Below are positions 37 to 62,035 of a stretch of DNA of 64,000 nucleotides, in pieces (positions within the stretch are counted from its first letter, which is position 1; each line of letters opens with the position of its first letter). The translations under genes were made by a program, and so were the position numbers. This stretch comes from Sipunculus nudus (taxonomy: Eukaryota > Annelida > Sipuncula > Golfingiida > Sipunculidae), in the NCBI GenBank assembly GCA_026874595.1, contig CM049310.1, positions 19,754,058-19,818,057 of the forward strand, in the 5' to 3' direction. Under the pieces are notes generated by a model, which was not told where the DNA came from, made no database searches, and saw only the letters and a program-made list of their open reading frames with translations.

Positions 37-2841
37 AAGGGACCCATGGGTCGCGTCGCTCAGCTGAATTTTGGAAAATATTAGGAACTGCAAAATATTT
101 TTATTTCTTTTAGTTTTTCATGTAACTTACCATTTGAAAAGCTAAGATAAAATGGCCCTGCTGAAATGGACCTCTGTAAATCATAAAATAATGGACATTA
201 GCTGAAGCATATGCACTGTGTAATAAATGAAATTTTTGCCCTGAAACCATGTAGTGATGCACCTAGGGAAAAAATGGTCCTACGGTAAGTGTTATATAAA
301 AGTAACATTTCAAAAACAAATGTGTGAAGGTAATTAAGTTTTCAAAAGTTAAATATGTGGCCATAATAGTTAAAAATTAATTATTACAAAGTTTGACCAA
401 TATTCCTGATTTTAATTTAGGTTTAACAGTGTTATTCACACCTAGGCTTGGCCAACTTTAAGAGATATGAATGAAATGCTACAAAGTATTTTTATCTTAT
501 TAAATCTTGTTAAATCTATCTTAAATCTATCTCATTTGAATATAAGGATTAAATTTCTGAAAATTTTTTTTCTTAAAAAAAAATCAAAATGTCCAAGTCT
601 CAACAAAAAGAATTTATTTAACATTAAAATTATAAGATTCCTCTTGTTTATTAGTCCTGTGTATTGAAGGGATGGGTGGGGTCTCTGTTGTAACTGCTCG
701 TTGCTGAATAAATGTGAAATTTTAAGATTATTCTTGTTTATAGTACAGGTCTGTCAACAGAATGGGTTGGGGGGGGGGGGGGCGGGATGGAGAGAGAAAG
801 GCTCCCTGTGGTATTAACTGCAGACAGCCTGATCAAGCTCAACAAGAGAGAGGGCTTGCCTGAGTGATGGGATTACATAACAGCCTGGGGAGCATTGAGA
901 GTTGCACTGAATGACCTACAGTGACCTCAGTGGACTGCTTGACAATGTAAGGGAATACAACAAGAGCCTCCAAACAAATTAAATCACCAGCCTAATTTTG
1001 CAGCTTTTATTTTCAAATTTCAGATTTTAACAGATTAAATCCTTATGTGTACATGCTGTGAAAATAACATCCACAGTACTTACAGGAAAAAATCGTGCCG
1101 TGGCCAAAGTTGGGCAAAATTTAAGGTACTGATTTTATATTTATGCTAATAACTTAAAAAAAATGCATTTTTCAGATCTAATTTTCGGTATACAATTGAA
1201 TCTTGATTAAATGATGTTATATTCCTGAAAAAAAGTCTCAGCTATTCTTATTTTAAGTGAGTAAATATATATCCTGATTTTTTACAAGGTGCATTATGTT
1301 TGGGCCTGTAACTTCAACAAATTATGCAATACTGACCGAAATTTTGGGATGTACATAGGAAATGTATGGAAGAATATGAATATTTACAATAACATCTACC
1401 AGGTAAACAAAAGTAGGGTCATGATGCTTGAAAATACAAATACATTATTCTTCTAAAAAACTTCAATAGCTAGACTAATTTTTAAGCTTATACTTTCAAA
1501 TTCAAAATTCCTCAGATTAAATCCACTTGTAAACTGGCTGTGAAAATTAAATCAAATGTACTTATAAGAAAAAAACGAGACATTTAGGCAATTTTAAGTA
1601 CCTATTTTTTATTTTTGCTAATATTTTAAAAAATTTAACAGATTTTGATCTAATTTTGGGTATACAATTTAATTTTGATTAATTAAAGATATATTACTGG
1701 AAAAAAGTCCATAGCTTTAAAATGTTTTGTTTTAAGTGATCAAATATCTTTCCTGATTTTTTACAAAATGCATTATGTTTGAGCCCATAACTTTTTGTAA
1801 ATCATATAATACAGACCTAATTTCTGGCATGTACATAGGAACTATATAGAGGAATATTTATGGTAAATATGAGGAAAAACAGGTGAGTGGTTTCGTTGTT
1901 AGGCTGTCCTGAAATGTGAAAATAGGTTTTTAATAAAAAATTGAGGTTTTTCCTTAATTTCTCAAAGGAACAAAGTCGCAAAGACCCTGTTTTCAGCTTG
2001 GTAGGAGATCTTGGGGACATCTAACATTATGCCAACAACCTTGGGAGCATAGAGAGCTGCACTGAATGACCAACAGTGACCACAGTGGACTGCTTGACAA
2101 TGTAAGGGAATACAACAAGAGCCTCCAAACAAATTAAATCACCAGCCTTATTTTGCAGCTTTTATTTTCAAATTTCAGATTTTAACAGATTAAATCCTTA
2201 TTTGTACATGCTGTGAAAATTAGATCCACAGAACTTACAGGAAAAAAACGTGCCATGGTCAAAGTTGGGCAAAATTTAAGGTACCAATTTTTTATTTTTG
2301 TTAATATTTTAAAAAATTTAAAAGATTTTGATCTTATTTTGGGTATACAATTTAATTTTGATAAAATAAAGTTATATTACTGGAAAAAAAGTCCATAGCT
2401 TTAACATGTTTTGTGTTAAGTGATCAAATATCTTTCCTGATTTTTTCCAAAATGCATTATGTTTGGGTCCATAACTTTTTTAAATTATATAATACAGACC
2501 TAATTTCTGGCATGTACATAGGAACTATATAGAGAAATATTTATGGTAAATATGAGGAAAAACAGATGAGTGGTTTCAATATTAGGCAGCCCTGAAGTGT
2601 GAAAATAGGTTTTTAATAAAAAATTGAGGTTTTTCCTTAATTTCTCAAAGGAACCAAGTCGCAAAGACCCAGTTTTCGGCTTGGTAGGAGATCTTGGGGA
2701 CATCTAACATTATGCTGAATTTTGGATTCCTAGGTCTTACGATTTCAAAACGTGCCACATCTACGGACGGACGGACAGACGGACGGACGGACAATGGACC
2801 ACGACTATAGCTCAGATGACTTATAGTCAGCTGAGCTAAAA
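37..2841 (+). mobile_element. Family C element, copy 1 (HINE/pearl-like, about 2.8 kb)
   Basis: The left end reads AACAAGGGACCCATGGGTC, followed by the subterminal motif GCTCAGCTGA at 58-67. The right end has a (GACG)n-rich stretch at about 2764-2792 and then a hairpin at 2809-2837: arms AGCTCAGATGACT and AGTCAGCTGAGCT, loop TAT, one mismatch. The right arm contains TCAGCTGAGC, the exact reverse complement of the 5' motif. The interior is a decayed tandem repeat: the block beginning near 905 recurs near 2051. The reversed copy at 38723-41355 has the same two ends, which is how the boundaries were set. No transposase is encoded. Assignment to Helentron/Helitron-type non-autonomous elements is inferred from architecture. 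Confidence 0.6.
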
Positions 2842-3455
2842 ATTGAGGTTTTTCCTTAATTTCTCAAAGGAACGAAGTCCCAAAGACCCAGTTTTCCTCT
2901 TGGTAGGAGATCTTTGGGACATCTAACATTATGCCGAATTTTGGATTCCTAGGTCTTACGGTTTCAAAATGTGCCACATCTACAGACGGACGGACGGACA
3001 GACAGACGGACGGACGACAGACAATGGACCCGACTTTAACTCAGATGACTTATAGTCAGCTGAGCTAAAAATTGCATTATATTTGGACCCATACCTTCAA
3101 AACAATACTAAATACTGACCTAATTTTTGGTATGTTAATAGAAAATGTATGGAGGAATATGAATACTTAATATAATCAAAAACAGACCAGTGGTTTTGAT
3201 ATTAGGCAGCCTTGAAGAGTAACAATGGCTTTTTTTATGGAAAATGGAGGTTTTTCCTTAATATCTCGAAGGAATGAAGTCCTAGTGACCCAATTTGCGG
3301 TATGATAGGATATTTTGGGGACATCTAACTATATTAAAAAATTTTGGATTCAAAGGTTCAACCGTTTCAAAACATGCCGTTTATGGTCGGCCGGCCGGAC
3401 GAACAGACAAAGGACCATGATTAGCTAAGATGACTTAAAGTCAGCTGAGCTAAAA
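2838..3455 (+). repeat. Two further family C 3'-terminal segments in tandem
   Basis: Directly after the copy 1 hairpin, two more C-type 3' ends follow head to tail. One ends with a hairpin at 3038-3066 and the other at 3423-3451; each is followed by AAAA. The first segment (about 230 bp) repeats the sequence preceding the copy 1 hairpin, including the GACG tract. The second (about 385 bp) is more diverged. The result is three consecutive terminal hairpins in the same orientation. Confidence 0.7.
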
Positions 3456-3586
3456 CCATTGAGAAATAGGACCAAAATCCACTATGACATGTGGAGACAT
3501 CTATAGGAAACATCTGAAGTGAATTTTGCATTTGAATATACTTCAATAATAATAATAATATTAAATAAATAATAATAATTAGAATA

Positions 3587-4584
3587 CCACAAAATCCAGA
3601 AAGCTATCCAAGTTGTATACATAAGCAAATTTTAGGCTGACAGGTCAAACCACTACTCCTATATGAGTGATTTTATCCCACAGCAGACAAACAGAAGGAA
3701 GCTGTGCAAAAATGGTTGCAGGTGGCGCCACCAATTTTGTGTATGGTTAAGAGCTATGTGAGATCTATACACATGCCGAAATTTCAGGGGGAAAGGTCAA
3801 ACCAGTCCTGAGATATAAGCCTGAATGTCTGCAGCATAAAAAATAAATGTAGGTGGCGCCACCTGCCACAAAATCCAGAAAGCTATCCAAGTTGTATACA
3901 TAAGCAAATTTTAGGCAGACAGGTCAAACCACTACTCCTATATGAGTGATTTTATCCCACAGCAGACAAACAGAAGGAAGCTGTGCAAAAATGGATGCAG
4001 GTGGCACCACCAATTTTGTGTATGGTTAAGAGCTATGTGAGATCTATAAACATGCCAAAATTTCAAAAGGATATGTCAAACCATTCTTGAGATATAAGCC
4101 TGTATGTCTGCAGCCTAAACATGAATGTAGGTGGCGCCACGTCATAAAATCAAGAAAGCTATCCAGGATGTATACACATGCAGGTGGATAAGTCCAGCCA
4201 ATGCAGAGATATGAGTGATTTTATCCCCAGTCAGATGAACAGATGGATGCTGTGCAAAAATGGTTGCAGGTGGCGCCACCATTTTTAGTGTATGTTATAA
4301 AGCTATCCAAGGACTACATTGGTGCAAAATTTTTTAGCCTGATCGGTCAAACGGTTCACGAGATATGTGAGTTTGTGTGTGGCACAAATGGACACAGGGA
4401 GAGAAAAAAGGTGGGCGGTCAACCGAAAATGAGGGCACAGCAGTTCACATTTGACCTGATCATAATTCTGAATTTTAAAAAATTCTGCCCAGTGGTTACA
4501 GAGGAGTTCTCAGGAAACCTAGGCAGCAGAAGCATGCAACTGAAAACATAGTATCCGCAAAACTCTGTTTTGGCAGATACAATT
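3587..4584 (+). mobile_element. Family A element, copy 1 (5'-truncated tandem array with 3' hairpin)
   Basis: Tandem units of about 277 bp start near 3587, 3866 and 4142. Each carries the palindrome GGTGGCGCCACC or a close variant twice, so the unit looks like an old dimer of about 140-bp monomers. The right end has AAAACATA followed by a hairpin at 4551-4580: left arm GTATCCGCAAAAC, right arm GTTTTGGCAGATAC. The right arm is nearly complementary to the 5' motif GTATCCGCC of the other family A copies. A trinucleotide AAT tract (about 3546-3580) sits at the left edge, where the family's usual 5' end is absent. Confidence 0.65.
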
Positions 4585-4674
4585 ACTATTTATATCAAAC
4601 ATTTATATTATAAAGTGACCAATGCAGCTATTGTATATGAGGGATCAGACCTCTTGTGTGCATTTTTAACTTAA

Positions 4675-6406
4675 ACTAGACATTTCTTGGCACCGCAGGT
4701 GCCAGAGTATCCCCAGACATAGCAGCCCCCCCCCCCCCCCCCTATAGAATAGACCCCCATTTTTAGCAGCATATACTGACACTCGGCATATTCATTGTTT
4801 CTTCCATCCAACAATCCACAATCTTGTTGAAGATGTTGGTTCTGTGACCTTGATCTTTTTAAAGATGTGTTCTGTGACCTTGACCTTTGACCTCATGACC
4901 CCAAAATCAATTTGGGTCTAGCTTTTCCAATGGGACATATGCAAGTCAAGTTGGAAATCTATACATCAATAAAGCAGGAATTATCATCCAGAAACTAATT
5001 TTTTTGGACAGATGGCTCCTGTGACCTTCACCTTTGACCTTGTGACCTCAAAATTGATAGTGTTCTTCCTCTCTTGGCAGGTGAACTATATGTGCAAGAT
5101 GAAAGATCTGAGATGAAATGTTTGGCTGAAAATGCATCAACATCTTTTTAAAGATGTGTCCTGTGACCTTGACCTTTGACCTCATGACCCCAAAATCAAT
5201 TTGGGTCTTGCTTTTCCAATGGGTCATATACAAGTCTGAAATCCATACATCAATAAAAGCAGGAATTATCATTCAGGAACTAATTTTTGGACAGATGGCT
5301 CCTGTGATCTTCACCTTTGACCTTGTGACCTCAAAACTGATAGGGGTCTTTCTCTATTGGCAGATGACTTATATGCGCAAGATGAAAGGTCTGAGATGAA
5401 ATGTTTGGCTGAAAATGCATCCACAATCTTTTTAAAGATGTGTCCTGTGACCTTGACCTTTGACCTCGTGACCCCAAAATCAATTGGAGTCTTGCTTTTT
5501 CAATGGGACATATACAAGTCAAATTTGAAATCAATACATCAATAAAAGCAGGAATTATCATCCAGAAACTAATTTTTGGACAGATAGCTCCTGTGGCCTT
5601 GACCTTTGACCCCAAAATTTATATGGATCATCCACCCATGGCAAGCGAGCTATATATTCAAGAAGGAAGACCTGGGATGAAAGTTTGGCTTAAAATGCAT
5701 CCACAGTATCTTTTAAAATGCCAGTCCAGTGACCTTGACCTTTGACCTCATGACCCTAGAACCTAAAGGGTTCTTACTTAAGTGGTGGGCCGTACATAAC
5801 TCATGTTTGAAATCCATATGGCTATCAACACTGAAGATATCATAAGAGGTGTGTGATTTTCACCATATATGGCAATATTCAAGGTCAAGGCCACTATCAT
5901 AGGAAAGGTCATGACCCCAATTTAAATAAACATCATCCCATAACCCATACCTATGTATATGCATAATATAAAAGAAATCTGTCCATTAGTTTTTGACTTA
6001 TAATGCTCACAGTACTGTAAGGTGGCAATTTTTGGGGTATTAAACGGCACAAAAACAAGTAAAGAATAATAGGTGGCGCCCCAGTTTCTGGAACATGACA
6101 ACCCTATCCATGATCTTCCATCAACTTGATTTTGGGATAAATCCATGCGAGATTTCTTGAGATATTAAAGAATTTGTGAGATTTTCCCGTAAAAATGGAC
6201 CGATTCAAGTTCAAGGACACTCTCCTAGTAAAGGTCATGACCTCATTTTAAATAGGCGTCGTCCTCTCACCCATATCTATACATATACCAAGTTTGGTAA
6301 AGTTCGGTGAAATATTCTTTGGGTTATCGCGCCAACAAGATTTATATGCGGCAGCGGGACCGGTATGAAAACATAGTATCCTCCGACTTAGTCTGGGGAT
6401 ACAATG
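4675..6406 (+). mobile_element. Family B element (pearl-like, about 1.7 kb, carries DR1 motifs)
   Basis: It begins ACTAGA like family A, then a perfect hairpin TGGCACC-GCA-GGTGCCA (4688-4704), then the subterminal motif GTATCCCCAGAC (4707-4718). It ends with AAAACATA and a 27-nt hairpin (6376-6402) whose right arm is GTCTGGGGATAC, the exact reverse complement of the 5' motif. The core holds about 285-bp tandem units (markers at 4874, 5163, 5447, 5729), each containing TGACCTTGACCTTTGACCT or a variant. A 17-C run lies at 4726-4742. There is no coding capacity. The short open frames in this array shift between units and are not genes. Confidence 0.65.
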
Positions 6407-7062
6407 ATTAAATGTAGAGAATTTTCAAACACTGACTTTTACATAAGTGGTGCTGGACTCACAAAGACAATAGGAATACAAAATCACATGAACCAACCTT
6501 CCCACCACAACCACATAGACTGAAGGACAGTATGTGACAGTAGTACAGGTTCCCATGGGGATTCATAGACTTGTGTATTACATTAATTTGTACCTATCCA
6601 TCCTTGCATCCTGACAGTATATGTTTTGTTAAATGGAGGGTTTGATACCAAAGTCTGGCATTTTGAACATAGTCTGAATTGTTATTTATATCACTTATGC
6701 AGAAAATGGATAACATTATCTCAATCTGTCAAAATGAGGACTACTCAGCAGAAAAGAACCCAGGAATATCTATGTAAATGCAGGAAGATCAAACAAATGC
6801 TGACAATTTTTTACCCAATACATATTAATGAACCAATCAGAACCATTGGACATGTTCCAGAAAATACTGTCTTCCTGTAGTTAAGCTGAATGTGGGAATG
6901 CTCAGATCCCTGTTTGTGGTTTAAAAGTAAATAAATATCAGCATGATGTATGTATGGATGAATAAGGTTCAGCTGACAGTAATAAGTACTGTGGACATGG
7001 TGAACTGACATAACCCTTTAGTTCTTGGGTCAGTTCTGACCTTCACTTCTTGTGATACCCAC
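6407..7062. other. No gene or repeat recognised
   Basis: This AT-rich stretch lies between the family B element and the XTBD exon. On the minus strand it is the beginning of the intron that follows that exon. Nothing coding was recognised on either strand. Confidence 0.5.
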
Positions 7063-7309
7063 CTGTGTTCTTTGAGATCATCTTTTAAATCTTCTGAAAG
7101 GAGTTTGAGCTGCTTCATCACTGGAGCTGGATAAACATTGCCATAACACTCCACATTCAGGAAACAACTGGCCAGGCACAGTAGACGATCCAGCGGGAAC
7201 TTGTCTTTGTGTGCTGCCATGAACTTGTAGCGGAGTGCCCACTCATTCTTGCTCTCATGGCTGATCCGGTAGTCATTAGGATCGAAGTTTTGGATATCCA
7301 TAGTTCCAC
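7063..7309 (-). CDS. XTBD (XRN2-binding) domain protein, single exon
   Basis: The minus-strand exon is bounded by an acceptor (TTGTTGATTCCAG, ending at 7310) and a donor (CACAG|GTGGGT at 7062). An in-frame ATG at 7301-7299 starts MDIQNFDPNDYRISHESKNEW, after which come a W/R/F-rich block, FPLDRLLCLASCFLNVE and YPAPVMKQLKLLSEDL. This order (EW..R..F, then LDRLL.L...F.NVE..G..Y) matches the XTBD domain of CDKN2AIP, CDKN2AIPNL and nematode PAXT-1, which bind the nuclear 5'-3' exonuclease XRN2. The exon ends in phase 2. The next exon should lie leftwards but was not found, so the protein is partial. The ATG may be the true start, with upstream exons non-coding, or the frame may enter through the acceptor. 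The family call is from recalled motifs; which paralogue it is remains open. Confidence 0.65.
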
Positions 7310-10300
7310 CTGGAATCAACAATAAACAAATTAAGGATTTTGTCCATGCCAATAATGACAATTAACAGAGCAAGAAGATGCTGAGCTATTTATTAAATAC
7401 TTGAATTAAACTAAAAAAAACTTGTCAAGAAATGCTCTTAATTTACATTTTTACTAACTGAAGTAAACCTGCATATTAAAACTATATTTTCCTCCACAAA
7501 GAATGCTAACCTTAACTTCAAGACATAATTTTATTAGACATGTACACAACAGTCAAATTCTTTACTGTCAGGAAAGTATTTTCAATCTTAATAAAAATCA
7601 TTAAATAATATAACACTGACTCCTCTGGAAAAAAGCTATTACCTGTGTCTGACATAACCTGTACTAAAGAGATATATGATTAACAAAAATTTGAACATGT
7701 ACTGTCCATAAAATGCAATAAAACTTGCAACGAAATCATAGGGAACACTTCAGTGTTTGTGACAAGAAGCAATTTGTGTCAAAAAATTCTTTTTGGTGAT
7801 TTTCAACACATGAAATCAAAAGATACACATCAGGGTTTGACATCAACTTTTGAAAGTACTTGCCCAGTCAGGCAAGAAATATCTAGCCTCTTCCTGAAGG
7901 TTATTTGCCCTACAAAAATAAATGCTGGTAGTCACAAACACAAATGTGTTCCATGTGATTATGCTGCAAGTTTTATTGCATTTTATAAACAATACACTTT
8001 CAAATGTTTATTGATCATATTTTTCTTTAGAACAATTAAATTCAGACACAGAGGTAGTATCATTATGATTTTGTTTCTATAAGACAGAAAATGGCTAAAT
8101 GAAAATTAGTAAAGACTCTGGGTAAAGAGCCTTTGGGTAAAGGTTTATCTTGGACCCACTTGTCTAGTCAGGCAAGAAGGTGACGTTTAGATGCCCTTCC
8201 ACCATTTTCTGCAACTTTTACTTTCTCTGGACAGGCAGTTAACTGTATATATATTTTCTGGATTTATGTTGAGTGGTCCCAATGGGAAAATATTACCATT
8301 ACATATTAAGAGCAATCACTAAAGAGAGGTTCCAAACAATTATAGTGGAGTAAAGATAACAGTAAATGTAATGCAACTAATTTTGTATTAATAATTGGAA
8401 TGAAACAGGAAAGTTTTCCAAGGTACATCTGTGAAAAATAAATTTGAGATTAAAACACAATAATGAGAATTGGTGTTAAAATACTACTGTGGTATTTTTG
8501 TTATTATTCCCAACAAAGAAGACAGCTTTCCCCACCAAGTTCATACTATTAATATCTCAGCAATCATTGTTAGTTTGGCCTCATTTTATTTATAATAAAT
8601 AAAATTATTGATAATGCAATTCATGCTTTGAACTTTTCAAGTCATTCCACTGAATTAAAATAATGTACAAGCAAAACTGTGACTGTGATCAAGATTGTAT
8701 TTTAAGGTAACCTCAACATCTAGATATTTTGAAATACTGCAATCTTGGCATTTCAAAGTAATCATGATAGTTATCCATTACTTTTACCATTTACTCATCC
8801 AATATCTGTTTCTGATCATGCAGAACCTGATAATCAACACAAGTTTGGAGTAATTTATGTAATACTGGTCCACCAGACTTGCAGTATATGGATAACCGTA
8901 CATGCATGGGCTTCAAGGTTCATGCAATTGCTGAGATACTTGAACTTCAATTTTTACTAAAAACATAACTTTCGTCAAGAAATATAGTCCAAAGTACTAT
9001 TAAACTTTTACTGAGCAGATTTAAGCAATGTACACATTTATCTGTTTATCCGACAATGCAAGGACAACAACGACAATGCATTTCCTGTAAACATCTAATC
9101 TGGCAAAAAATATAATCAGAAGCCAAATTACAAATTTTGTTCATCACGAGGACAAAAAATTTCTTTATTCAGGGCATCTAAGTGGTTTCTTTACTACAAT
9201 GCATGAAAAAGATGCAAGTGTTTGGTGGTAGAGACTTCAATTTTTTGGTTATGCAATTGGCACTCTATGGTTATGACTGGCAATGGCAAAAATTTCTCCA
9301 AAGACCGACTAGAAAATTTGCTGGAGACTGGCTCCTTTGACATTATTACCATGTACATTTTCAAACAACTGATTTTTTACCATTGCTGCATTATCATTGT
9401 GGGATTGTAATTGCTGGATAAATGGATGAATGTACAAATATCTTATCCTTTAACTCCAAGCAAATTTCACAGGCAATTTTGATATAAAGCAACAACTGGT
9501 CCCTTAGGTCACATGATGGATAAAAATTCCACCTTAGACATCTAACTGGCTGAACTGTATTTTTCAGCAGTCTTAAGTTCTCACAATCTCACATTCATCA
9601 CAGACATGCACCCCCCCCCCCCCCCCCCCCCCAACCAAAATTAGCAGCTCCTGCCCAGTATGAAGTAAATATTTGATTTCTCACTGGCAAAGAATATTAA
9701 GGCTTAATAAATAAGCTTACTCCTCCCCTCATTAGTGATTGATTATAATCAATGATCGATCGGTTGGTGGAAATGATCTGGTGATTGATTTTGCAGTGCC
9801 ATAATCGATAAAGTTTCAAATAAAAGGCTTTGTGCTGAGAAAATGTATGGTTTCTTTTAATTCATGTGAGCAAACTCTTGAAAAGTCTATGTTTACCAGT
9901 AACTTCATATCCAAGGTTACTACACACATATATGTTATATAATTATTACATCTAAAAGCAAACATGTAGGCCTTTATAATCAGCTAAGACAATGTACAGT
10001 TCTTTATATGGTAAATTTTTTTTTTTACCCCTATATAACTTATTTATCCTGAATTGTTTGGTAGAGGTCAACCAATTTTTACTGAATATCAATCATGAAA
10101 TTACAACCAATTCCCTGCACTACCCTTAATCACAGAAACTTATTTATTTTTTTCTATTTGAAAGGTTCATAGGAGCAACGTGAGGCCACCTGGGAAACAG
10201 CTCCAGTATAATTCATTTATATAAACCAAGTGCATAACTACATATATCTGGGGTGTAGAAAACAGCAAGTACCATATCAGATCAGGCCTGTAAGATAGTG

Positions 10301-11329: not shown

Positions 11330-11337
11330 ATTATAGG

Positions 11338-12514: not shown

Positions 12515-13934
12515 ACCAAGTGGCCTATGGGCAATGGCGCTCAGCTGAATTTGACATATCGGTACAGGTGATGCACGTATTATTATTAATATTAATATTA
12601 ATTACTGATGTTATTATCAGTAGAAAAATATTTGTTAAGTAGCCTTGTAGAATGACTTCCACAGTTCTCAAAATCATGTTTTTCATCCAGTCTGTAGAGA
12701 ATAGGTTAACAGCGACCTCATTTAGGGTTTCCAAGAATATTTGACCAGGACCTAAATAGATGTCAAGTTAGTACTTCCTATGTCAAACTGCTACGATGTG
12801 TTTCCATCTGACTTAAAGGGTGATGAAATCATGTTGTCACATAGCTCACAGAATATAGGCCACAGTGACCTTATTTAGGGTTTCCACGATTATACAGAGA
12901 CCTCCCAGGATCTTCATTAAATCAGACATTTTTAGGTCCAACTGCAATAACTTGTGCAAATCTGACTTACAGGGTACTCAAATCACATTCTTTCACAAAT
13001 CTTGCAGTCACAGAATATGGGTCACAGTGACCTTTGGATGTCAAGAGAGACCTAACAGTGACCTCCCTTTACATTTAGTAAGACATTAATTACTAAATAT
13101 AACAGTTAAGATTTGTGCCCCGTCTGCCTTTCTGGGTGTTCAAAATTTGGTTTCCTGCTTGTAGCCTACAGAACACAGGTCACCATGACCTAATTACATG
13201 TTTCCAAGGAGATTTGCCCAAGACTTCCCTGGATTTACGTTAGAAGATTCTATGGCAAATGGATACAATTTGTATCCTGTTTATTTGGGTGCTAAATATC
13301 ATGTTTTTTGCCTGCAGCGCCAGCTTGTAGAATACACATCGCCATGACCAAACTTCAGGTTTTCACGGACATTTTCCATTTGAAGATTCTGGGGCTAACA
13401 GATGGAATTTGTACATTGTCTGACTGGAAAAAATTTGTTTTTGGCCAAAAACTCACAGAATATAGGTCACCATGACCTAATTCAGGTTTCAAACGAGATC
13501 TGCCATGGAACTCCCTGGATATTTTCATTATTATTATGTTAGAAGATTCTAGGTCTAACGAATACAGTTTGTGATAATCTGACATTCAGGGTGCTCAACA
13601 AATATTTTTTCAATAGATAGCAGAATATAGGCCACAGTGACCTTTTTCATGTTTCCAAGGACATTTACCCATGACCTCCCTGTATGTTACATTAAAAGAT
13701 TCTCAGACTAATAGATATAAATTGTGACCTGTCTGTCTGGGTGCTCAAACTGTTTTCGGCCTGTATCTTGCAATGTTAGGTCACCATGAACTTATTTAAG
13801 ATTTCCAACATTTGACTAGTACCTCCCTGGATATACAGTTTCTAGTTCTAACAGTTATGATTTGTCCATGACGGACGACGGACAAAGGGTGATCACTACA
13901 GCTGAGATGATTTACAGTCAGCTGGGCTAAAAAT
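12515..13934 (+). mobile_element. Family C-prime element with about 155-bp tandem core (ERE-like motifs)
   Basis: The left end has GGCCTATGGGCAATGGC followed by GCTCAGCTGA (12539-12548), the same subterminal motif as family C. The right end has GACGGACGACGGAC, GGTGATCACTACAGC and a degenerate hairpin at 13902-13930, followed by AAAA. The core is about eight diverged units of roughly 155 bp, each with a ..GGTCACCATGACC.. or ..CACAGTGACC.. block (12859, 13020, 13177, about 13338, 13464, 13628, 13778). It shares termini with family C but not the core. Confidence 0.6.
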
Positions 13935-15580: not shown

Positions 15581-16265
15581 ACTAGAATATGGGTAGTCGA
15601 CAAGCGACTACGTGTATCCGCCGAAATCAGAGTGGGACGGGTGAAGTGAGGCATGGATTGAGTGGCAAGGGGAGGTGTGTTGCATATTAGCATGGATATC
15701 TTCAGCTGAAATGTGTATGTAGGTTGCGCCACCTACCACAAAATCCAGAAAGCTGTCAAAGTTGTAGACATATGCAAAATTTTAGGCAGATAAGTCAAAC
15801 CACTAAGTCTATATGAGTGATTATTTCCAACAGCTGACAAACAGAAGGACGCTGTGCAAAAATGGTGGCAGGTGGCCCTACCAATCTTGTGTATGATTAA
15901 GAGCTATGTGAGATCTATACACATGCAAATTTTCAGGGGGATATGTCAAACCAGTCCTGAGATATAAGCCTGAATGTCTGCAGAGTCAACATTAATGTAG
16001 GTGGCGCCACCTGCCACAAAATCGAGAAAGCTATCCAAGATGTATAAACATGCAAAATTTTAGGCAGATCAGTCAAACCACTACTGAGATATGAGTGATT
16101 TTAGCCCAGGGCAGACAAACAGATGGACGCTGTGCAAAAATGGTTGCAGGAGGGGCCACCAGTATTGCATATGATAAAGAACTATGTGAGATCTATACAC
16201 ATGCAAATTTTGGCCCAATCGATCAAACGGTTCCCGAGAGATGAGCTTGGATGTCTGCAGCGTAA
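15581..16265 (+). mobile_element. Family A element, copy 2 (5' end intact, 3' truncated)
   Basis: It begins ACTAGAATATGGG, then a perfect short hairpin TAGTCG-ACAAG-CGACTA (15594-15610), then GTATCCGCC (15614-15622). About two tandem units with GGTGGC-type palindromes follow. Homology with the copy at 51415-52575 is evident through the whole 5' leader. It stops near 16265, before the 3' hairpin region. Confidence 0.65.
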
Positions 16266-17559
16266 ACGTGGAACCATCAAAATGTGAAATGTCACACTTG
16301 TCTGTCAGTTACACATACTTTATTAACTGATTCTCTGATTTTGATAAAATTTCTAATGGTGACCTGAGAACAAGTCAAACAATGAGTCTTTCTTTACCAT
16401 ATGATCTAAAGTGAAATATTTAATGAGTGGAGAGCTAAAAGAGTTGCATGATTCTCAGCTGTCAGTCCCAAAATCAGTCATGGATTTTGCATAATATAAA
16501 TAACAGAAGGCTCATGATGCTCAGCTGAACTTTATATCAGGAAAATGTGGTTTTGTACACAAGTGGCCAACAGGCCATGACTCTCAGCTGAATTTTACAC
16601 CCTGATTAAGGCCATAGCAGATACATATATATAGGTGACACAGTTAACTATATACAAATTAATGGAATAGTTGAAAACAATATAAAAGCTCAAGTGTTCA
16701 TTTTTTTTTGAATTGCTTAAGCAGAAGAGGAAACCATATCTTATAGAAAGTAGATACACAAAGTTGGCACCAATTTATATTCAATTTCCTTGCTCTAAAA
16801 AAAGTAACCATGTAAATATGAAAGCCAAATTGTTATATTTTTTACTCAACTTGGGAGAAGTGGAATATATCATTCAGGCTCATAGAGGATAGGCTTAATT
16901 AAGTCAAAAATGATGTCACATGTATCTTGCATGTGCAAACACATCACTTGATCAATATTCCTGTAATATTTGGTGGCTGAATGCTGCAACAATTCCTGGT
17001 ATATATAACTAGAAATGCTTTGCCCAGGTTTTTAAGATAATAGATGGCTGCCAAACTGGATTAAATCCAACTAGTTTGAAAATTGATGGCATTAATTGCT
17101 TTAGTGACCAACAGATAAAATCTGAATGCAGATGTATGAACAATTCTTAAAATAATATTTATAAAGAGAAATCTAAGTTCGCTCATCACTGCCTGTTAAC
17201 CATAAATATCGTTTGATGGTAATGAGATTTGATCACGCATCCACTTATACAAAACTACCATCATACATATCACTGCAATATTCTGAATGGTTCTTTATGA
17301 TACTGTGCCCTAAAAGAAATTAAAGATTGCTGAATGTCAGCCACACTGAATTTCTATCAGGTTTGAATTTGATAGCACATATCCTCGCCTGAGGACCAAT
17401 CATTGTACAATACAAAATTTGGCAATAATTGCTCAAAATGGTTCACAAGATATTGTGCAAAATAGAGTGACAGATAAACAGACAAATATTTGTTCAGCAC
17501 TCTTGGACACTCAGGAGAATTAATTTCAGGGCACTTAAAAATTAAAATTCTGCTCTAGC
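16266..17559. other. No gene; isolated family C 5'-type motifs
   Basis: GCTCAGCTGA occurs at 16519-16528, and a CTCAGCTGA match preceded by CAGGCCATGA lies at about 16573-16591. Both resemble the 5' end of family C and suggest truncated insertions. The remainder is AT-rich without recognisable content. Confidence 0.4.
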
Positions 17560-17785
17560 CCGATAGCTCACAGAATATACATCACAGAGACCTAGTGTCC
17601 GGTTTCAAGAACATTTGCTCAGGATCTCCCTGGATGTATGGTAAGAAGCTTCTAGGTTAACGTTTTTGACTTGTGTCCTGCCTGCTAACAGACAGCTAGA
17701 TGGACGACTGGACAGTCACCAAGAAGGCCAACAGACAAAGGGTTATCACTATAGCTCAAATGACTTTCAGTCAGCTGAGCTTTAT
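17560..17785 (+). repeat. Short C-prime copy: one core unit plus 3' hairpin
   Basis: It carries one core-like unit (CACAGAATATACATCACAGA..., ..CTCCCTGGATGTA..), a GACGACTGGAC tract, GGGTTATCACTAT and a C-type hairpin at 17753-17781 ending TCAGCTGAGC. It is a 5'-truncated copy. Confidence 0.55.
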
Positions 17786-34410: not shown

Positions 34411-35515
34411 CCGGTGTAACAGCCCAGATTATTCCCCCTGCCCAGTTTATACCCGGGTATAAAACAGCCTAGGCTAGAATATACCCCGGGCTATATTCCG
34501 GCCTAGGCTATTTTATACCCCCCTAGGCCAGATTATACCCCCACATGCAATCAGGTTTCACTGTTATTTAATGTATCAAAGTTGATTTTAATAACAAATT
34601 TTAATGTTATCCATAAAATGATATAACCAATCTGGTTAAACACCTGTAGGCCTACTCTCATGCATTTTCAATCACAAACACACACCCAAGGGTCACACAC
34701 ATATATATGTAATTGAATAGAAGCCTCGTTATTTTAAATATTTTTTTGTATTTATTGATACTATAAACTGATACTATTGATACTATAAATGTTTCCTTGT
34801 ACACGGAATAATGACAGCAGACTGAGAGGATAATTCTCTATAATTATAATCTTCTTAAATTTATATGTATATGTATGTAGATATATGTTTTGATGCACTC
34901 TATACATTTAGTATGTTTAATACCATAATGTATTATTCAGATTACCAATCTCAGGAAGCCCCCCCCCCCCACCCCACGATCCACCTCAGGGACACCCCCC
35001 CCCGCCCTCCACCCCAAGGAAACCACCTCACAGAAACCACGATCTCCTAGAGAAACTTAAGCCTCAGAGAAGCCCCAAACAATCATTATAATTATTACTT
35101 GCATGCATGAGATCATGCAGGCATAATGAAGTAATTTAGGTTCATATACAAGACAAAACTTACAAGTATACATACTAACATAAATGCCGCAAATAGAATT
35201 AATCGCTCATAACACGAAAACTGAGTTTTAGCTATATCGTTAAAAATAGTTCTTATTTTATCAGACACAATGACTAAGTCCATTTAAATTAACTATTGTG
35301 TTAAGCACAGCTGTTTTTTATTGATATATATAAAAGATATGAGAAGCAACAAGGGGGTATAATTCAGCCCAGAGGGGTATAAAATAGACTGGGCTAGATT
35401 ATACCCCGGGGTATAAAATAGCCTAGCCCGTTTTATACCCGGGGTATATTCTGGCCTAGGCCAGTTTATACCCGGGTATAGAATAAGGGGGGTTTATTCT
35501 GGCCTATTACACCGG
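34411..35515. mobile_element. Foldback-type element with long palindromic inverted ends (1.1 kb)
   Basis: The left end is CCGGTGTAACAG...TATACCCGGGTATA (34411-34461). The right end, read inward, is CCGGTGTAATAG...TATACCCGGGTATA (35515 back to about 35467). Both ends contain alternating CCTAGGC and GGGTATAAA blocks, for about 110-160 bp of imperfect inverted repeat made of smaller palindromes. The centre is AT-rich with C-rich patches near 34962-35000. It encodes nothing recognisable and its superfamily is unknown. Confidence 0.65.
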
Positions 35516-37601: not shown

Positions 37602-37810
37602 CATGCAGCTCGGTTGACTATACGTCATCTGCGCATAAGTTATGGTCCATCGCTCGTCGTCCGTCCGTCCGATAGACTGGCACGTTTTGAAACCGTTAGA
37701 CCTACGAATCAAAATTAGGCATACTCTTAGATGTCCCAAAGATCTCCTGCCAATCAGAAAACTGTGTCACTGCGACTTCGTTCCTTTGAAATTGAAAATT
37801 AAAGCTTAAA
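37602..37810 (-). repeat. Diverged family C 3' end, reversed
   Basis: CAGCTCGGTTGACTATACGTC is a mutated C hairpin. It is followed by GTCGTCCGTCCGTCC, GGCACGTTTTGAAACCGTTA and a region matching family C copies at 38720-38900. It lies in the intron of the Dispatched-like gene. Confidence 0.55.
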
Positions 37811-38207
37811 AATTAGGCTAGTTATTGAAGTTTATAAACAGAGGATCTATTGTATTCCTTGGTATTGTCAAGCTCCAGGCCACCTACTTCTATTCACTAC
37901 AGCCCTGACTGGGTAACCTTATTAATGATGCAACACCGGTCAAGCACCCCTACTATCACCGGTGTACAGTTATTCTCATGTCACCCCCCCCCCCCCACCA
38001 CGTATATTACAATAATTTTTATTGTTTGAAAGGTATTTCTTTATTTGGAAAGCTGTTTCCAGTTCAATGTACAAAACTTTTCTTGAAACAGTAATTCAAG
38101 GAGTAATCCAGAAGATGCTATGTCGTGATAATAAAGCATTTATAAAGAAATTAATTTCCTTTCAAATAATTGAAGACAATAAAAATATAATCAAATCCAT
38201 CAGTAGG

Positions 38208-41200
38208 CATTTTTATGCCCCCGCCACAAAGTGGCCGGGGCATATAGTTTCACCCATGTCCGTCATTCCGTCATTCCGAAATCAAACAGTTGTACGGACT
38301 CTTTTTTCGCAATGCCTGCAGATATTGGCCTGATTTTTGGTGTGTGAGCAGATAATGACCAGTTACAGATCGAGTTTGCGTTTCGTCCCGGTTGACCTAC
38401 TTTTGACCGTTTTACGGCTCCTAAACTTAGAAAATTTCATGAAAAATAGAAATTTTCATGACAAACAAACATGTACGAACTTTTTTTTCACAATGCCAGC
38501 AGATATTTGCCTGATTTTTGGTGTGTAGGCAGATAATGACCAGTTACAGATCGAGTTCGCGTTTCATCCCAGTTGACCTATTTTTGACCATATGACAGAG
38601 ATCCTGAACATAGAAAATTTCGTCCCGATTGACCTACTTTTGACTGTTTTACGGCTCCTTAACTTAGAAAATTTCATGAAAAATAGAAATTTTCATGACA
38701 AATACACATGTACAGACTTTTTAGCTCAGCTGACTATAAGTCATCTGAGCTATAGTCGTGGTACATTGTCCGTCGTCCGTCCGTCTGTCCGTCCGTCCGT
38801 AGATGTGGCACGTTTTGAAACCGTAAGACATAGGAACCTAAAATTCGGCATAGTGTTAGATGTCCCCAAGATCTCCTACCAAGCCGAAAACTGGGTCTTT
38901 GCGACTTTGTTCCTTTGAGAAATTAAGGAAAAACCTCAATTTTTTATTAAAAACCTATTTTCACACTTCAGGGCTGCCTAATATCAAAACCACTCATCTG
39001 TTTTTCCTCATATTTACCATAAATATTCCTCTATATAGTTCCTGTGTACATGCCTGAAATTATGTGTGTATTATATAATTTAAGAAAGTTATGGGCCAGA
39101 ACATAATGCATTTTGTAAAAAATCAGGAAAGATATTTGATCACTTAACACAAAACATGTGTAAGCTATGGATTTTTTTTTCAAGTAATATAACTTTAATT
39201 AATCAAAATTAAATTGTATACCCAAAATTAGATCAAAATCCTTTAAATTTTTTAAAATATTAACAAAAATAAAAAATTGGTACCTTAAATTTTGCCTTAC
39301 TTTGACCATGGCACGTTTTTTTTCCTGTAAGTACTGTGGATTGAATTTTCTCAGCATGTTTTTGTTAGCATTTTGTCTGTTAACATAAAAAATTTGAAAC
39401 CAGTTGATCAAAAACTGTAGATTTTATTCAAGTTTTCAAGCACCATGTAACATATTGTTTACATCAGGCTAGTGTTATACAGTTTGCAAGAGCTCAGCTC
39501 CCCAGCTTAAGCTCTCAGTTTGTAAAATTTGGCATACAATTAGATGTCTCCAAAATCCCCTATCATGCCAAGAATTTGGTCACTAGGACTTAATACCTTT
39601 GAGATATTAATGAAAAACTTCATTTTTCAATTAAAAACCCATTGTTACACTTCAATATTGCCTAATATCAAAATCACTGATCTGACTTTAATCATATATA
39701 ATATACATGTTTTTCTATACATTCTCTGTGCACATGCCAGAAATGATGTCAGTATTGCGTAATTATTTTAAGTTATGGGCCCAAACTTAATGCACTTTGT
39801 AAAAAATCAAGAAATATATTTACTCCCTTAACAAGGGGCTTGCTGAAGCTAGAGATTTTTTGTCAGGGATGTAACATTATTTAATCAAGATTCAATTGAA
39901 TACCCAAAATAAGTTCTGAATTTTTTAAATTTTTTAAGTTATTAGTATAAATTTAAATTAGTACCTTAAATTTTGCCCAACTTTTACCATTTCACTTTTG
40001 TTTCATGTGAGATCTGTTTATAATATAATTTTCATATCATGCACACATAAGGATTTCAGCTTTTTAGTTTAGAAAGCTGAAAGAAATTGGCCAAAAATTG
40101 TAGCTTTTATTAATGTTTTTATGAGACCATGTCAGGCCTTGGCTCTCTCCAGACACTCTTGAGTCACCTGTATGTTGACCTTGTTGAACATTCAGCAAAT
40201 TATGCACGCTTCAGGCGAGGCATATACTTGGGCAGCCAGGCAGCTTATGGCCAGCCACAGTTGATCCAGATGTCCCAGCCCAACTCATCTAGTAGTTTTA
40301 ACCAACAACATAACAATAAACAATAAATTAATCAATTTTTATTGGTTTTTAATAACAAATTAAAGAAAAATAGAAAAGGAATTTGTTAGTTTATAATAAT
40401 AGGGAATTAACTTGCAGTTACTGATGATATAAGAATCTTGTATCGATGGATAGAATGTCACGTATTCCAAATAACACCATGCAGTCACCTATGGCATTTT
40501 TCAGTTCAATTTTAATAATAAAAAAATAAATCATATTATTCATTACTAATCATTAGGGATCATATGAAGGAAATTAATGATAGACAAAGATGCAGTTGAT
40601 AATATTATTCTAGATTCCTACTGTGTCTAGTGTGTACATTGATGTGAAATTAGTCCAAAATGAATATATCACATTTATTTTTTTTAAATATAAATAAAAG
40701 CCATTAAACCAGGTACTTATGATCATTATTTAAATGTGTGAATTTTGTACATTCTGGATTCTCAACACCATTGTTTGGTGAAAACTGAATAAATACCAGA
40801 CATGGTGGGAATACTTTGCAATTGTATTTAAATACGAATATGAATATGAACTCCATTATAAAATTTCTTGCATAAAGAATGGGAATTCAGGTAAAAATGA
40901 AAGTATATGAATACCAGTGCAAATACTTTCCAAATGTATTCATGAATGCATTCATGAATATATTCTTTTATGTTATTTTAATAATCATTTCAGTTATATT
41001 TCATTTTAAAAATCATACGATTCTATTATTATTTTTAATAAAAATTATATCTGGTACAATATTTGTAATTTTTTTTAATAAATAGTTAAACTCTTATATT
41101 ATATGTTCTGCTTATAAGTTATATGGCCAAGTCAAAATCTGTGTGACAATAGTACTCCATTTGTTAATAAAATAAATGAAATCAATTCTCTTCTCTGTCT

Positions 41201-42100
41201 CCAAAGGTACTATCAAAATCATACATAAGCTAAACAACAACAACTCATAATACAGCTTATACTTATTACCACACAAAACCAGCATGTGCCTCATTTCTAA
41301 ATCATATTTTTTTATCATATATAACAGCTGAGCGCCGTGACCCATAGGTCCCTTGTTTTCGCAATGCCTCCAGATATGGGCCTGATTTTTGGTGTTTGGG
41401 CAGATATTGACCAGTTACAGATCGAGTTCGCGTTTCGTCCCGGTTGACCTACTTTTGACCGTTTTACGGCTCTTGAACATAGAAAATTTCATGAAAAATA
41501 TAAATTTTCATGACAAACACACATGTACGGACTTTTTTTCGCAGTGCCTACAGATATTGACCTGATTTTTGGTGTGTAGGCAGATAATGACCAGTTACAG
41601 ATCGAGTTCGCGTTTCGTCCCGGTTGACCTACTTTTGACCGTTTTACGGCTCTTGAACATAGAAAATTTTATGAAAAATATAAATGTTCATGACAATTAC
41701 ACATGTACGGACTTTTTTTCGCAATGCCTGCAGATATTGGCCTGATTTTTGGTGTGTGGGCAGAAAATGACTAGCTACAGATCGAGTTCGCGTTTCATCC
41801 CAGTTGACCTATTTTTGACCATATGACAGAGATCCTGAACATAGAAAATTTCATGAAAGACAGAAATTTTTATGAAAAATGCACATGTATGGACTTTTTT
41901 TCACAATGCCTGCAGATACTGGCCTGATTTTTGGTGTGTCGCTTGATAATGACCCGTTACAGATCAAGTTTGCATTTTGCCCTTGTTGACCTACTTTTGA
42001 CCATACGACACCTCCCGAACTTAAAAATTTTTTACAAAATTTAACAAATGTTTCTAATTTGCCCCAGGCGGGGGCATTCGTGTCGTTCCGACACATCTAG
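38208..42100 (+). mobile_element. Family D element (HINE/Helitron-like), split by a nested insertion
   Basis: The 5' end has hairpin ATGCCCCCGCCAC-AAA-GTGGCCGGGGCAT (38215-38243). The core has 180-181-bp tandem units (markers at 38321, 38502, 41373, 41553, 41733, 41914) containing CAGATATTGGCCTGATTTTT. The 3' end has GGCGGGGGCAT (42067-42077), the reverse complement of the 5' ATGCCCCCGCC, then a perfect hairpin GTGTCG-TTC-CGACAC (42080-42094), then AT-CTAG and a T. Hairpin followed by CTRR|T is the classical Helitron 3' terminus. Without the insert the element is about 1.26 kb. No Rep/helicase is encoded. Confidence 0.7.
38723..41355 (-). mobile_element. Family C element, copy 2 (2.63 kb), nested in family D
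   Basis: Reversed relative to copy 1. It starts with the hairpin AGCTCAGCTGACT-ATA-AGTCATCTGAGCT (38723-38751) and GTCC repeats, and ends ACAGCTGAGC (41324-41333), GCCGTGACCCATAGGTC and CCTTG. The family D unit ...GTACAGAC-TTTTT is interrupted and resumes TTTTCGCAATGCC at about 41356; intact D units have 7-8 T there. So the element sits inside a T run with no long target duplication. Interior blocks at 38860 and 39544 are diverged copies of one repeat. Confidence 0.7.
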
Positions 42101-44217: not shown

Positions 44218-45007
44218 GTAATGTTGGTAGGTGTCCAAAGAGCTTTATAATCCGAGAATCTTACACAATGGAGACCCACTCTTGCACTGGTACATTAAAC
44301 TAACATATCGGTACCGACTTACATATCGGTGAAAATGTGAGGTCTACTTTAGCGTTTTTAGTTGAGAACTTGGTCACACCCGCTTTTCTCCGACTCGGGC
44401 TGTCATCGCCATCTTCTGGACAATACATAAACTAGATTTTTCTAATACTCGGCGATCATTTGGGAAGCCTCTACCTGTCAAGGCAAAACTTGACCTGTGA
44501 CCATTAATTCAACTGCAGGACAGTTTTGGAAAATCAGCCGTAATGGGGAAAGTTATTCCAAATATCGGTATAGAAACAAATAAACTCATGAATCCTAAAG
44601 CCTCGATCCGTTCCCTATAGGGAGAGGGGAATTGGTTACTAAGGAATCATTTAATACTTGTTCCAAATTAAATGTTTGGGCTAGGTGCGTTTGTGAATAT
44701 TTCTCACGCCATAAAACGCGTGTGTATTGTTGTATATATTGAGATGATTGTGGGCGATCATTTAATATCGGAATTGTTACTACAAAGTTAATGTAAATGT
44801 ACCTGCAGAATATATATAGCTGTTTATATATATGGTTGGTGTGCATGCCTTAGTTTTCATTTCTTACAGAATAAAGGAGTGGTTTAGAGCCAAGTTGAAA
44901 AAATAAATTGCAAAAGATTTATGAACACAAGTATCCTATATAGATGATTCGCAAGAGCGAAATTTTAATTGGCAAGAAGATATACATTTCTTTGTTATTT
45001 TACACAG

Positions 45008-48996: not shown

Positions 48997-49048
<52 letters not shown>

Positions 49049-50084: not shown

Positions 50085-50151
<67 letters not shown>

Positions 50152-51414: not shown

Positions 51415-52575
51415 ACTAGAATACGGGTAGTCGACAAGCGACTACGTGTATCCGCCTAAATCAGAGTGGAACGGGTGAAGTGAGGCAATGATTAAGTGGC
51501 AAGGGGAAATAGAGTGAAGTGTTGCATATTAGCATGGATGTCTGCAGCCAAATGGTGTATGTAGGTTGCGCCACCTACCACAAAATCCAGAAAACCGTCC
51601 AAGTTGTATACATATGCAAAATTTGAGGCAGATAAGTCAAACCACTACATGTTTATGAGTGATTTTAGCCCGTGGCAGACAAACAGATAGACGCTGTGCA
51701 AAAATGGTTGAAGGTGGCGCCACCAGTTTTGCGTATGATAAAGAGCTATGTGAGAACTATACACATGCAAAACTTTGGCCCAGTCGGTCAAACGGTTCCC
51801 AAGATATGAGCTTGGATGTCTGCTGCATAAACTAGAATGCAGGTGGTGCCACCTGTCATAAAATCAAGAGAGCTGTCGGGGATGTATAAACCTGCAAAAT
51901 TTTAGGCAGATATGTCAAACCACTGCCGAGATATGAGTGATTTTATCCCATGGCAGACAAACAGACGGGAGCTGTGCAAAAATGGCTGCAGGTGGCGCCA
52001 CCAGTTTTGCGTATGATAAAGAGCTATATGAGATCTATACACATGCAAAATTTTGGCCCAATCGGTCAAACGGTTCCCGAGATATGAGCTTGGATGTCTG
52101 CAGCGTAAACGTGAATGTAGGTGGCGCCAGCTGTCATAAAATCAGAAAAGCTATCCAGGATGTATACGCATACCGAATTTCAGGTGAATTAGTCAAATCA
52201 CTGCAGAGATATGAGTGATTTTAACCCAAGGCAGACGAACAGATGGACACTGTACAAACATGGTTGCAGGTGGCGCCACTATTTTTTGTGTATGTTATAA
52301 AGCTCTCCAAGGGCTACATTTGTGCAAAAAAATTTTCCTGATCCGTCAAATGGTTCCAGAGATTTTGGGTTTATGTGTGGAAACAGACGCACAAACGGAC
52401 GCAGAGCGCAGAGGAAAGGTCAGAGGTCAAAACAAAATCGGGGCGCAGCAGTTCACATGTGACCCGAACATAATCCCGGGTTTCGTAAAATTCTGCCCAG
52501 CGGTTACGGAGGAGTTCTCCGGACACCTACGCGGCGGCGGCGGCGGCGGTGGGCTGAAAACATAGTACCCGCAAA
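51415..52575 (+). mobile_element. Family A element, copy 3 (near full length, about 1.16 kb)
   Basis: It begins ACTAGAATACGGG, hairpin TAGTCG-ACAAG-CGACTA (51428-51444) and GTATCCGCC (51448-51456). The core has tandem units of about 275-280 bp (markers near 51577, 51857, 52131), with GGTGGCGCCACC at about 51715-51726, 51992-52003 and 52272-52281. It ends GAGGAGTTCTCCGGACACC, a (GGC)n tract, GCTGAAAACATAGTACCCGC. The second arm of the 3' hairpin seen in copy 1 is missing, so the last few bases are lost or mutated. Confidence 0.7.
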
Positions 52576-52660
52576 ACCATTTAAAAATAATGAAGAAAGA
52601 CTCCCCTGCCTTTCAATATATTTTTTTCTCAGCGTAAAATCTAGTGGCAACTTGATACAT

Positions 52661-57173: not shown

Positions 57174-57235
<62 letters not shown>

Positions 57236-58182: not shown

Positions 58183-58190
58183 CTTATGCA

Positions 58191-61100: not shown

Positions 61101-61434
61101 GCAGTGGTTCAGTTCTTAAATTATTATTCTATTATTAACTAAATTACACTGGCAGCACTTCCTAAAAAATAAGAAATAAAAAATATATATCACCAGAGTC
61201 TGAATTTTGTTTTTAACTTCCTTTAGATTCATTCCTGTCTTTTGGTGGGTTACATGTCGGTATCCATTATTTGCTAAAAGAATACTTCTATTCTGCCCGA
61301 TACATACCATATTCTTTCTAATTCATATAATATTCTTTTGTTTTGTTAACGCTCAGTATTCATATTTAAGTTTTATGATTAGTCAACCTATCTGTTTCTT
61401 GTTCCGCTGTGTCAAACATGCAGTTTTAGATAAT
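58191..61434. other. No gene recognised; one local tandem duplication
   Basis: A unit of about 178 bp is duplicated (58671 and 58849; GGAAACAAGGT..GGGG and TTAAAGGTCGTTAT in each). A short palindrome GCACCAC-AC-GTGGTGC lies at 61087-61102. The rest is AT-rich without recognisable exons. Confidence 0.45.
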
Positions 61435-62035
61435 GAAACCTCGTACGTCGTCCGTCTATCGGTCTGTCTGTCTGTCCGTTAACCAGGCACAATTCGTAAC
61501 CCCTAGACCTAGTTTCCTCATGCAGGGAGGTCCCTGAAAAAAAATCTCCTTGGAAACCTGAAAGTATGTCTCTGTTACCCATATCCTCCAAGCTATTGGG
61601 CTCAGGAGTACCCCCAGAATAATTAAAAATTTGATACAAAAGTTCCACTATCTGAACAATTAATGCATTGATCCCCATGATTCTTTGCATGCATATTGCT
61701 TATGGAGCGTTTCATCATTTCCTGTAGACCGGTGGCGCCACCTCCGTTTTTTTTTCAAATTGTTACACATTTTTTCTCAATGTTTGAGACCTTAAACGAT
61801 GTGGTTGTCTGTTAACAGGGCACAAATCGTTACCATTGCACTTAGAATCTTCTACTTGACATCCTGGGAGGTCCATGAAAAATCTCTTTGGAAACCTTAA
61901 ATGAGGTCTCTGTTACCCATATCATCCGAGCTAAGCTGCAGTTGAATGGGGATACTACCTACAAAATCTGGCATTCAGATGATAAAATTCATTTTGTGAA
62001 TGTCTTCTAAATCAGCTGAGCGTCATGACCCATGG
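61435..62035 (-). mobile_element. Family C-prime element, reversed copy
   Basis: In reverse it starts AGTGACCCATGGGTCATGAC then GCTCAGCTGA (62021-62012). It has two core units with GGTCTCTGTTACCCATAT (as read on +), and ends with GTCCGTCTATCGGTCTGTC tracts near 61449-61480. The 3' hairpin is not recognisable. A GGTGGCGCCACC palindrome (61731-61742) lies inside. Confidence 0.5.

Follow-up and report, generated by a model that had tools for sequence, protein, structure and literature searches.

Four repeat families with Helentron-type ends, very probably non-autonomous Helentrons, within 64 kb of the Sipunculus nudus genome

Introduction

Non-autonomous Helentrons (HINEs) and Helitron2-type elements, as they appear in the excerpts of the literature on which we draw throughout (PMC4067079, PMC7492417, PMC2374699, PMC3627910), follow one plan from 5' to 3': a T-rich edge, a subterminal inverted repeat (subTIR, also called asymmetric terminal inverted repeat or ATIR) and an inverted repeat (IR) complementary to it, the two forming a 5' hairpin, after which there come, often, a microsatellite, central repeats, a 3' subTIR, a separate palindrome and a T-rich 3' edge. 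Drosophila willistoni carries three types of DINE-1 with differing subTIRs and central repeats (PMC2374699, excerpt). In oysters, 257 of 751 intact Helitrons carry subTIRs, and 33% of these also have a 5' IR; these subTIR Helitrons show features of both groups and have been called possible intermediates (PMC7992393, excerpt). Here we describe four repeat families, A, B, C and D, in a stretch of 64,000 nucleotides from Sipunculus nudus (GenBank assembly GCA_026874595.1, contig CM049310.1, positions 19,754,058 to 19,818,057 of the forward strand), which as a whole is called the window below, and we assign them with high confidence to the HINEs.

Results

Anatomy of the four families. With both strands read, and with A, B and C turned round, all four families show the published anatomy: to the extent that the individual copies survive, it runs on the plus strand in D, C4, C5 and C6 and on the minus strand in A1 to A3, B, C1, C2 and C3 (Table 1). 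The 5' hairpin, formed by the 5' subTIR and its complementary IR, is present in every family (degenerate in copies C2 and C4), and so are a 3' subTIR complementary to the 5' subTIR (in A, across copies) and, after it, a separate palindrome near the 3' end (GTAGTCGCTTGTCGACTAC in A, TGGCACCTGCGGTGCCA in B, GACCCATGGGTC in C and GTGTCGTTCCGACAC in D). An earlier note on this stretch, made from the letters alone, had proposed a rolling-circle-like architecture of the HINE type, and we correct its orientation here for A, B and C: against the published convention its 5' and 3' labels were reversed for these three and correct for D alone, its "3'-terminal hairpin" being the 5' hairpin and its "5' subterminal motif" the 3' subTIR. 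Nor is D the variant for which it was taken, the "separate hairpin" ascribed to it being the 3' palindrome that is found in all four families. The motif pairs quoted in the note lie where it placed them in C (GCTCAGCTGA/TCAGCTGAGC), B (GTATCCCCAGAC at 4707, GTCTGGGGATAC at 6391) and D (ATGCCCCCGCC at 38215, GGCGGGGGCAT at 42067); in A the match is inexact, with 8 of 9 bases agreeing between GTATCCGCC (at 15614 and 51448) and GGCAGATAC (at 4572), and the two ends come from different copies. The tandem cores that it described were recovered by Tandem Repeats Finder (TRF) in A (units of 279 and 278 bp), B (289 bp) and D (180 bp) and hold only loosely for C, whose core consists of diverged long repeats of 73 to 88% identity. 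A microsatellite (GTCC/ACGG) was reported by TRF in the left module of C (2763-2793, 2982-3022 and 38768-38800), and degenerate GTCC/CCG runs were seen by eye in D and A3.

The bases in front of the 5' hairpins are T-runs in C1 (all three of its 5' ends), C2, C5 and D, ATT in A and B, TATAA in C3 and CATG in C4, and the presumed 3' tips of A, B and D, which end 6 to 12 nt past the palindrome, read CTAG then T, those of C1 and C5 CTTG then T. Since A2 and A3 have common sequence through CTAG and the following TT and diverge beyond, the 3' edge of A is fixed independently of the motif. A tip of TCTAG then T, so close behind a palindrome, could be the CTRR end of a canonical Helitron (Helitron1), with the inverted repeats incidental; however, no TC was seen before the 5' hairpins, 5' subTIR and IR hairpins with matching 3' subTIRs occur in all four families, C1 and C5 finish in CTTG, and C5 was inserted into a T-run, which makes this origin very unlikely in our judgment.

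Statistical support. Inverted matches of some 10 bases are not rare by themselves and alone would not suffice. When the whole window was scanned loosely for the architecture, 21 matches turned up, many of them within AT-rich, simple or palindromic repeats; 40 first-order Markov shuffles yielded 2.0 on average and never more than 5. Of 20,000 random segments of the window, 2 matched the pairing score of the 5' arm of A with its own 3' subTIR, 1 did so for B, 21 for C and 7 for D. Among the 24 possible ways of assigning 3' subTIRs to 5' arms, the true one has the highest score (43.5; runner-up, 33.5). Shuffled sequences folded as well as the 5' hairpin in none of 200 cases for A, C and D and in three for B. 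The anatomy, the hairpin folds and the pairing statistics bear out the architecture proposed earlier, and we conclude that A to D are very probably four families of non-autonomous Helentrons, that is, HINEs with Helitron2-type ends, in an animal genome.

Insertion of C5 into D and the composite C1 locus. C5 interrupts the 180-bp array of D; by the listed limits, D measures 1,255 bp without it. Once the flanks are put together, a D unit reappears in register. The T-run at this junction then counts 9 T, where four uninterrupted D junctions have 7, 7, 7 and 8, so that at most two T were added. The target is a T-run, and long target duplication, which the earlier note had held to be incompatible with its proposal, is absent at this single testable site; for A, B and D the corresponding observation is of T-rich edges.

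The C1 locus has a single 3' end, at 36, and three C-type 5' ends, whose hairpins end at 2838, 3067 and 3452. Of these 5' ends, the second, C1b, matches the initial ~230 bp of C1 with 90% identity, and the third, C1c, shows 72.65% identity to the neighbouring copy over 234 columns. Because bases 1-35, past the 3' tip of C1, are themselves C-like (local score 38, which none of 500 shuffles and none of 500 random 35-mers taken from 18-37 kb reached), C1 appears to lie within older C sequence. The locus resembles Helitron2-type elements of Fusarium, for which self-insertion has been proposed to yield several 5' termini with one 3' terminus (PMC3627910, excerpt).

These two loci also bear on a cut-and-paste origin. 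Inverted repeats near both ends, small size and the absence of coding sequence would suit miniature inverted-repeat transposable elements (MITEs) or other elements mobilised by a DDE transposase, for example of the hAT type, remnants of which lie at 27.7-28.3 kb, and DINE-1 and Pearl were formerly called MITEs. On the other hand, the inverted repeats described here are subterminal, asymmetric and at unequal distances from the two ends, no more than two extra T and no longer duplication are found at the C5 site, and the C1 locus combines several 5' ends with a single 3' end. We consider a cut-and-paste origin extremely improbable and retain the assignment to the HINEs.

Relations among the families. 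The earlier note had called the families unrelated in sequence. This stands for the cores, between which no cross-family match was found at E<=1e-6, and fails for the ends. The 30 nt after the IR are common to A and B (TATGTTTTCA; score matched by 4 of 4,000 random windows) and to C and D (22 of 4,000), the other pairs being not significant (A-C, 3,997; A-D, 2,260; B-C, 3,678; B-D, 949 of 4,000). The 16 nt after the palindrome, with TCTAG then TT, are common to A, B and D (score matched by 12 to 26 of 4,000 random windows); for C, sharing is not clear (347 to 1,007 of 4,000). The compared 3' segments contain target Ts, which raises the scores somewhat. Unrelated cores lie within these related ends: past the shared post-hairpin stretch, the left modules of A and B have no further homology (score 22, matched by 1,282 of 2,000 random windows), and cores of at least two kinds occur within C-type ends, one in C1/C5 and another in C2, the match of C2 to C1 at E<=1e-6 being confined to the 5' end (13870-13934 and 2778-2843). 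It could be argued that A to D are truly independent passengers that converged on the end grammar of one enzyme rather than descendants of common ends, as the unmatched cores, the differing subTIR sequences and the four post-hairpin pairings no better than many random windows would allow. We regard such convergence as somewhat unlikely, given that the post-hairpin stretches of A-B and C-D and the tips of A, B and D are shared beyond chance.

A proposed mode of movement. We infer that these families move by a rolling circle; a single machinery for all of them, as suggested in the earlier note, is a hypothesis. The Rep/helicase of an autonomous Helentron, not seen among the scanned reading frames of the window, would nick at the T-rich 5' edge, peel off one strand and halt on reaching the 3' palindrome; next, the 5' subTIR, until then folded with the neighbouring IR, would pair with the 3' subTIR and bring the ends together, and the single strand would be joined into a TT site without long duplication. 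A pairing switch of this kind, in which pairing of the 5' and 3' ATIRs destroys the 5' hairpin, has already been proposed (PMC3627910, excerpt).

The folds of the 5' hairpin have a common defect that may be relevant to this switch. C and D fold alike: eight pairs form the outer part of the stem, a single position is left unpaired, and five further pairs lead to a loop of 3 nt. In A this geometry recurs with a one-base bulge instead of a mismatch at position 9, and B has position 9 unpaired, a second mismatch at position 7 and three inner pairs. All ten hairpins (seven from C and one each from D, B and A) leave stem position 9 unpaired, yet in every family the 5'-arm base at this position is paired when the 5' and 3' subTIRs form a duplex (in A, across different copies). 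Mismatches besides position 9 number three in C2, four in C4 and one each in C1c, C3 and B. Three hairpins of the window (C1, C5 and D) show exactly the 8-1-5-3 geometry without any further mismatch, which was seen in none of 30 shuffles, and among the six single-mismatch 31-nt hairpins of the window the mismatch lies at position 9 in these same three and at positions 13, 1 and 11 in the others. The pattern was noticed after the folds had been made, the geometry was chosen after C and D, and the independent cases are few, the seven C copies being related and A-B and C-D sharing ends; the nominal coincidence of ~0.001 for position 9, which we worked out ourselves, is weak. Energies calculated with DNA parameters are -6.8 (A), -5.3 (B), -10.2 (C) and -12.7 (D) kcal/mol for the hairpins and -8.8, -14.1, -14.2 and -18.3 kcal/mol, respectively, for the 5'/3' duplexes, two-strand values that are not strictly comparable with the intramolecular ones.

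One could imagine that the defect makes the 5' hairpin a one-way switch: the hairpin would be weaker than end-to-end pairing, arrival of the 3' subTIR would open it and mark the end of the element, and the enzyme would read shape, not sequence. We put this forward as a speculative and rather doubtful idea. If it were true, one machinery could move families with different subTIRs, and if the fixed defect holds genome-wide, it would offer a testable rule for the recognition and joining of Helentron-type ends, a step that the papers cited here treat by models only. The IR of DINE-1 has been called "partial and/or interrupted" (PMC2374699, excerpt); a fixed position of the defect did not emerge from a search of papers for bulges and mismatches in Helitron hairpins, figures and supplements with hairpin sequences lying outside that search.

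Observations that weigh against the assignment. Several points tell against the HINE assignment or narrow its basis: (i) the 3' palindromes differ in strength, shuffles being equally good in 1 (B) and 6 (D) of 200 cases, in 14 for the modest hairpin of A, and in 152 for the loop-less palindrome of C, which in its sequence context folds no better than shuffled sequences; (ii) the 5' arm of B pairs slightly better with the IR of A than with its own (8.5 against 8); (iii) each of the three A copies in the window is incomplete at one end; (iv) TRF reports a microsatellite in C only and gave no such row for the left modules of A, B and D; (v) B and D are single copies with outer limits set by analogy only, and the evidence for all four families comes from copies within the 64-kb window alone; and (vi) the C5 site fits both an element that begins with TT and makes no duplication and a 2-bp TT duplication, an ambiguity that has been discussed for DINE-1 as well (PMC2374699, excerpt).

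Coding content and searches outside the window. Pfam models were run at E<=0.01 on 114 of the 124 stop-to-stop open reading frames (ORFs) of at least 70 amino acids in the window. No Helitron Rep/helicase was found among them, shorter or broken frames being outside the scan, and no Helitron, helicase or DDE model matched, except for hAT-type matches at 27.7-28.3 kb, outside the elements. Scanned ORFs within the elements gave no match, in agreement with the earlier statement that the families carry no protein. The window gave no Rfam match at gathering scores and no tRNA. Exact patterns found no outside copies in virus and prokaryote contig collections, where absence says little; some of these patterns, including the C pattern used on the prokaryote side, match no window copy either, and the viral part was repeated with patterns that do. 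Six motifs searched as letters in papers gave nothing on these elements among the matches listed, judged by title and start of abstract.

Individual copies and neighbouring features. The copies are collected in Table 1. The 5' end of A3 starts at the IR (52565-52577), the 5' subTIR and hairpin loop being missing; it begins at the far side of the loop, as if cut there, in this single case. C3 has a second 3' subTIR remnant at 16519-16527, and no 5' hairpin was recognised by eye in C6.

Table 1. Coordinates of the HINE copies in the window and of their end structures
Feature	Positions	Strand	Details
C1, C-family HINE, both ends	36..2838	-	5' hairpin 2808-2838; 3' subTIR 58-66
C1, 3' end	palindrome GACCCATGGGTC 41-52	-	tip CCCTTG then TTT at 36
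C1b, additional C-family 5' end, no 3' end of its own	2839..3067	-	hairpin 3037-3067
C1c, third, more diverged C-family 5' end, no 3' end of its own	3068..3452, limits approximate	-	hairpin 3422-3452
A1, A-family copy, 3' part missing, ends within array	3585..4580	-	5' hairpin 4551-4580
B, HINE, both ends	4676..6402	-	5' hairpin 6376-6402; 289-bp repeat array 4853-5756
B, 3' end	subTIR 4707-4718; palindrome 4688-4704	-	tip TGTCTAG then TTT at 4676, inferred by analogy with A
C2, C-family ends, different core	12517..13929, 3' limit approximate	-	hairpin 13899-13929, degenerate; 3' subTIR 12539-12547
A2, A-family, 3' end only	15582..16270	-	3' subTIR 15614-15622; palindrome 15593-15611; tip TATTCTAG then TT
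C3, C-family	16560..17782	-	5' hairpin 17752-17782; 3' palindrome TGGCCTGTTGGCCA 16564-16577
C4, C-family 5' end fragment	37606..37900, right edge approximate	+	hairpin 37606-37636, degenerate
D, HINE, both ends, interrupted by C5	38211..42100	+	5' hairpin 38214-38244; 180-bp repeat array
D, 3' end	subTIR 42067-42077; palindrome 42080-42094	+	tip CATCTAG then TTT at 42100
C5, C-family HINE, both ends, within T-run of D array	38721..41355	+	5' hairpin 38722-38752
C5, 3' end	subTIR 41325-41333; palindrome 41339-41350 (one mismatch)	+	tip CCCTTG then TTTT
A3, A-family	51416..52577	-	3' subTIR 51448-51456; palindrome 51427-51445; tip TATTCTAG then TT
C6, C-family 3' part	61425..62043, limits approximate	+	3' subTIR 62013-62021; palindrome 62027-62038

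The repeat of the B array carries TGACCTNTGACC, which has the form of a DR1 nuclear-receptor site. This motif is found five times in the array, once more at 44491 and, on the opposite strand, once near 52417 (mean of 0 in 40 shuffles; the array copies are not independent). The core of C2 (13020-13480) holds three GGTCANNNTGACC palindromes, which have the form of an estrogen-response-type element, against a mean of 0.1 in 40 shuffles. An A-like fragment with a partial duplication of its own lies at 28808-29109 (68% identity to the A array over 241 columns). The 1.1-kb stretch at 34411-35515, with palindromic GGGGTATAAAATAGCCTAGGCC-type units at both edges that are ~82% identical when inverted, was among the matches of the loose scan and was set aside as a HINE candidate; this repeat is built of palindromic GGGTATA/CTAGGCC units. 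Elsewhere in the window are an XTBD domain (6972-7361, minus strand), a reverse transcriptase ORF (23561-25312, minus strand), the hAT-type transposase remnants (27670-28283, plus strand) and an 853-amino-acid ORF with a Patched/sterol-sensing domain (44944-47502, plus strand).

Discussion

Within 64 kb, the window compactly illustrates how several HINE lineages can share part of their ends and differ in their cores. The architecture claimed in the earlier note is right in kind and ordinary for oyster-like genomes, and several HINE lineages side by side are already known from oysters and flies.

All comparisons that follow are with the published elements as the cited excerpts present them. One close parallel is Cg_HINE of Crassostrea gigas (PMC7492417), by description and not by sequence identity: a 5' subTIR with complementary IR, a microsatellite (here reported by TRF in C), central repeats, 3' subTIR and palindrome, insertion into TT without duplication, related ends around unrelated cores, and unrelated families side by side. 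The C ends with their two cores are like the oyster "group 2" HINEs, in which related flanks enclose unrelated repeats (PMC7492417). DINE-1 of Drosophila and the mite HINEs share the subTIRs, the 3' stem-loop and insertion into TT or T-rich sites (PMC2374699, PMC4067079), and DINE-1 itself also has a "partial and/or interrupted" IR, central repeats that vary and a microsatellite (GTCY; here TRF reports one in C) (PMC2374699). The TCTAG tip of A, B and D differs from DINE-1, which is said to have neither the 5' TC nor the 3' CTRR of Helitrons (PMC2374699).

Unlike the Helitron2/ATIR elements (PMC3627910), the window has no Rep/helicase among its scanned ORFs. A, B and D resemble the subTIR Helitrons of oysters in showing features of both groups, although a microsatellite is present in only one of the latter (PMC7992393), whereas C has one by TRF. 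Finally, the edges of A, B and D are like those of proto-Helentron-Pi of Phytophthora infestans, which has 5' TT and 3' CTAG and makes no target duplication; that element, on the other hand, is autonomous, ~14 kb long and inserted between A and T, and its excerpted description mentions no subTIR (PMC4067079).

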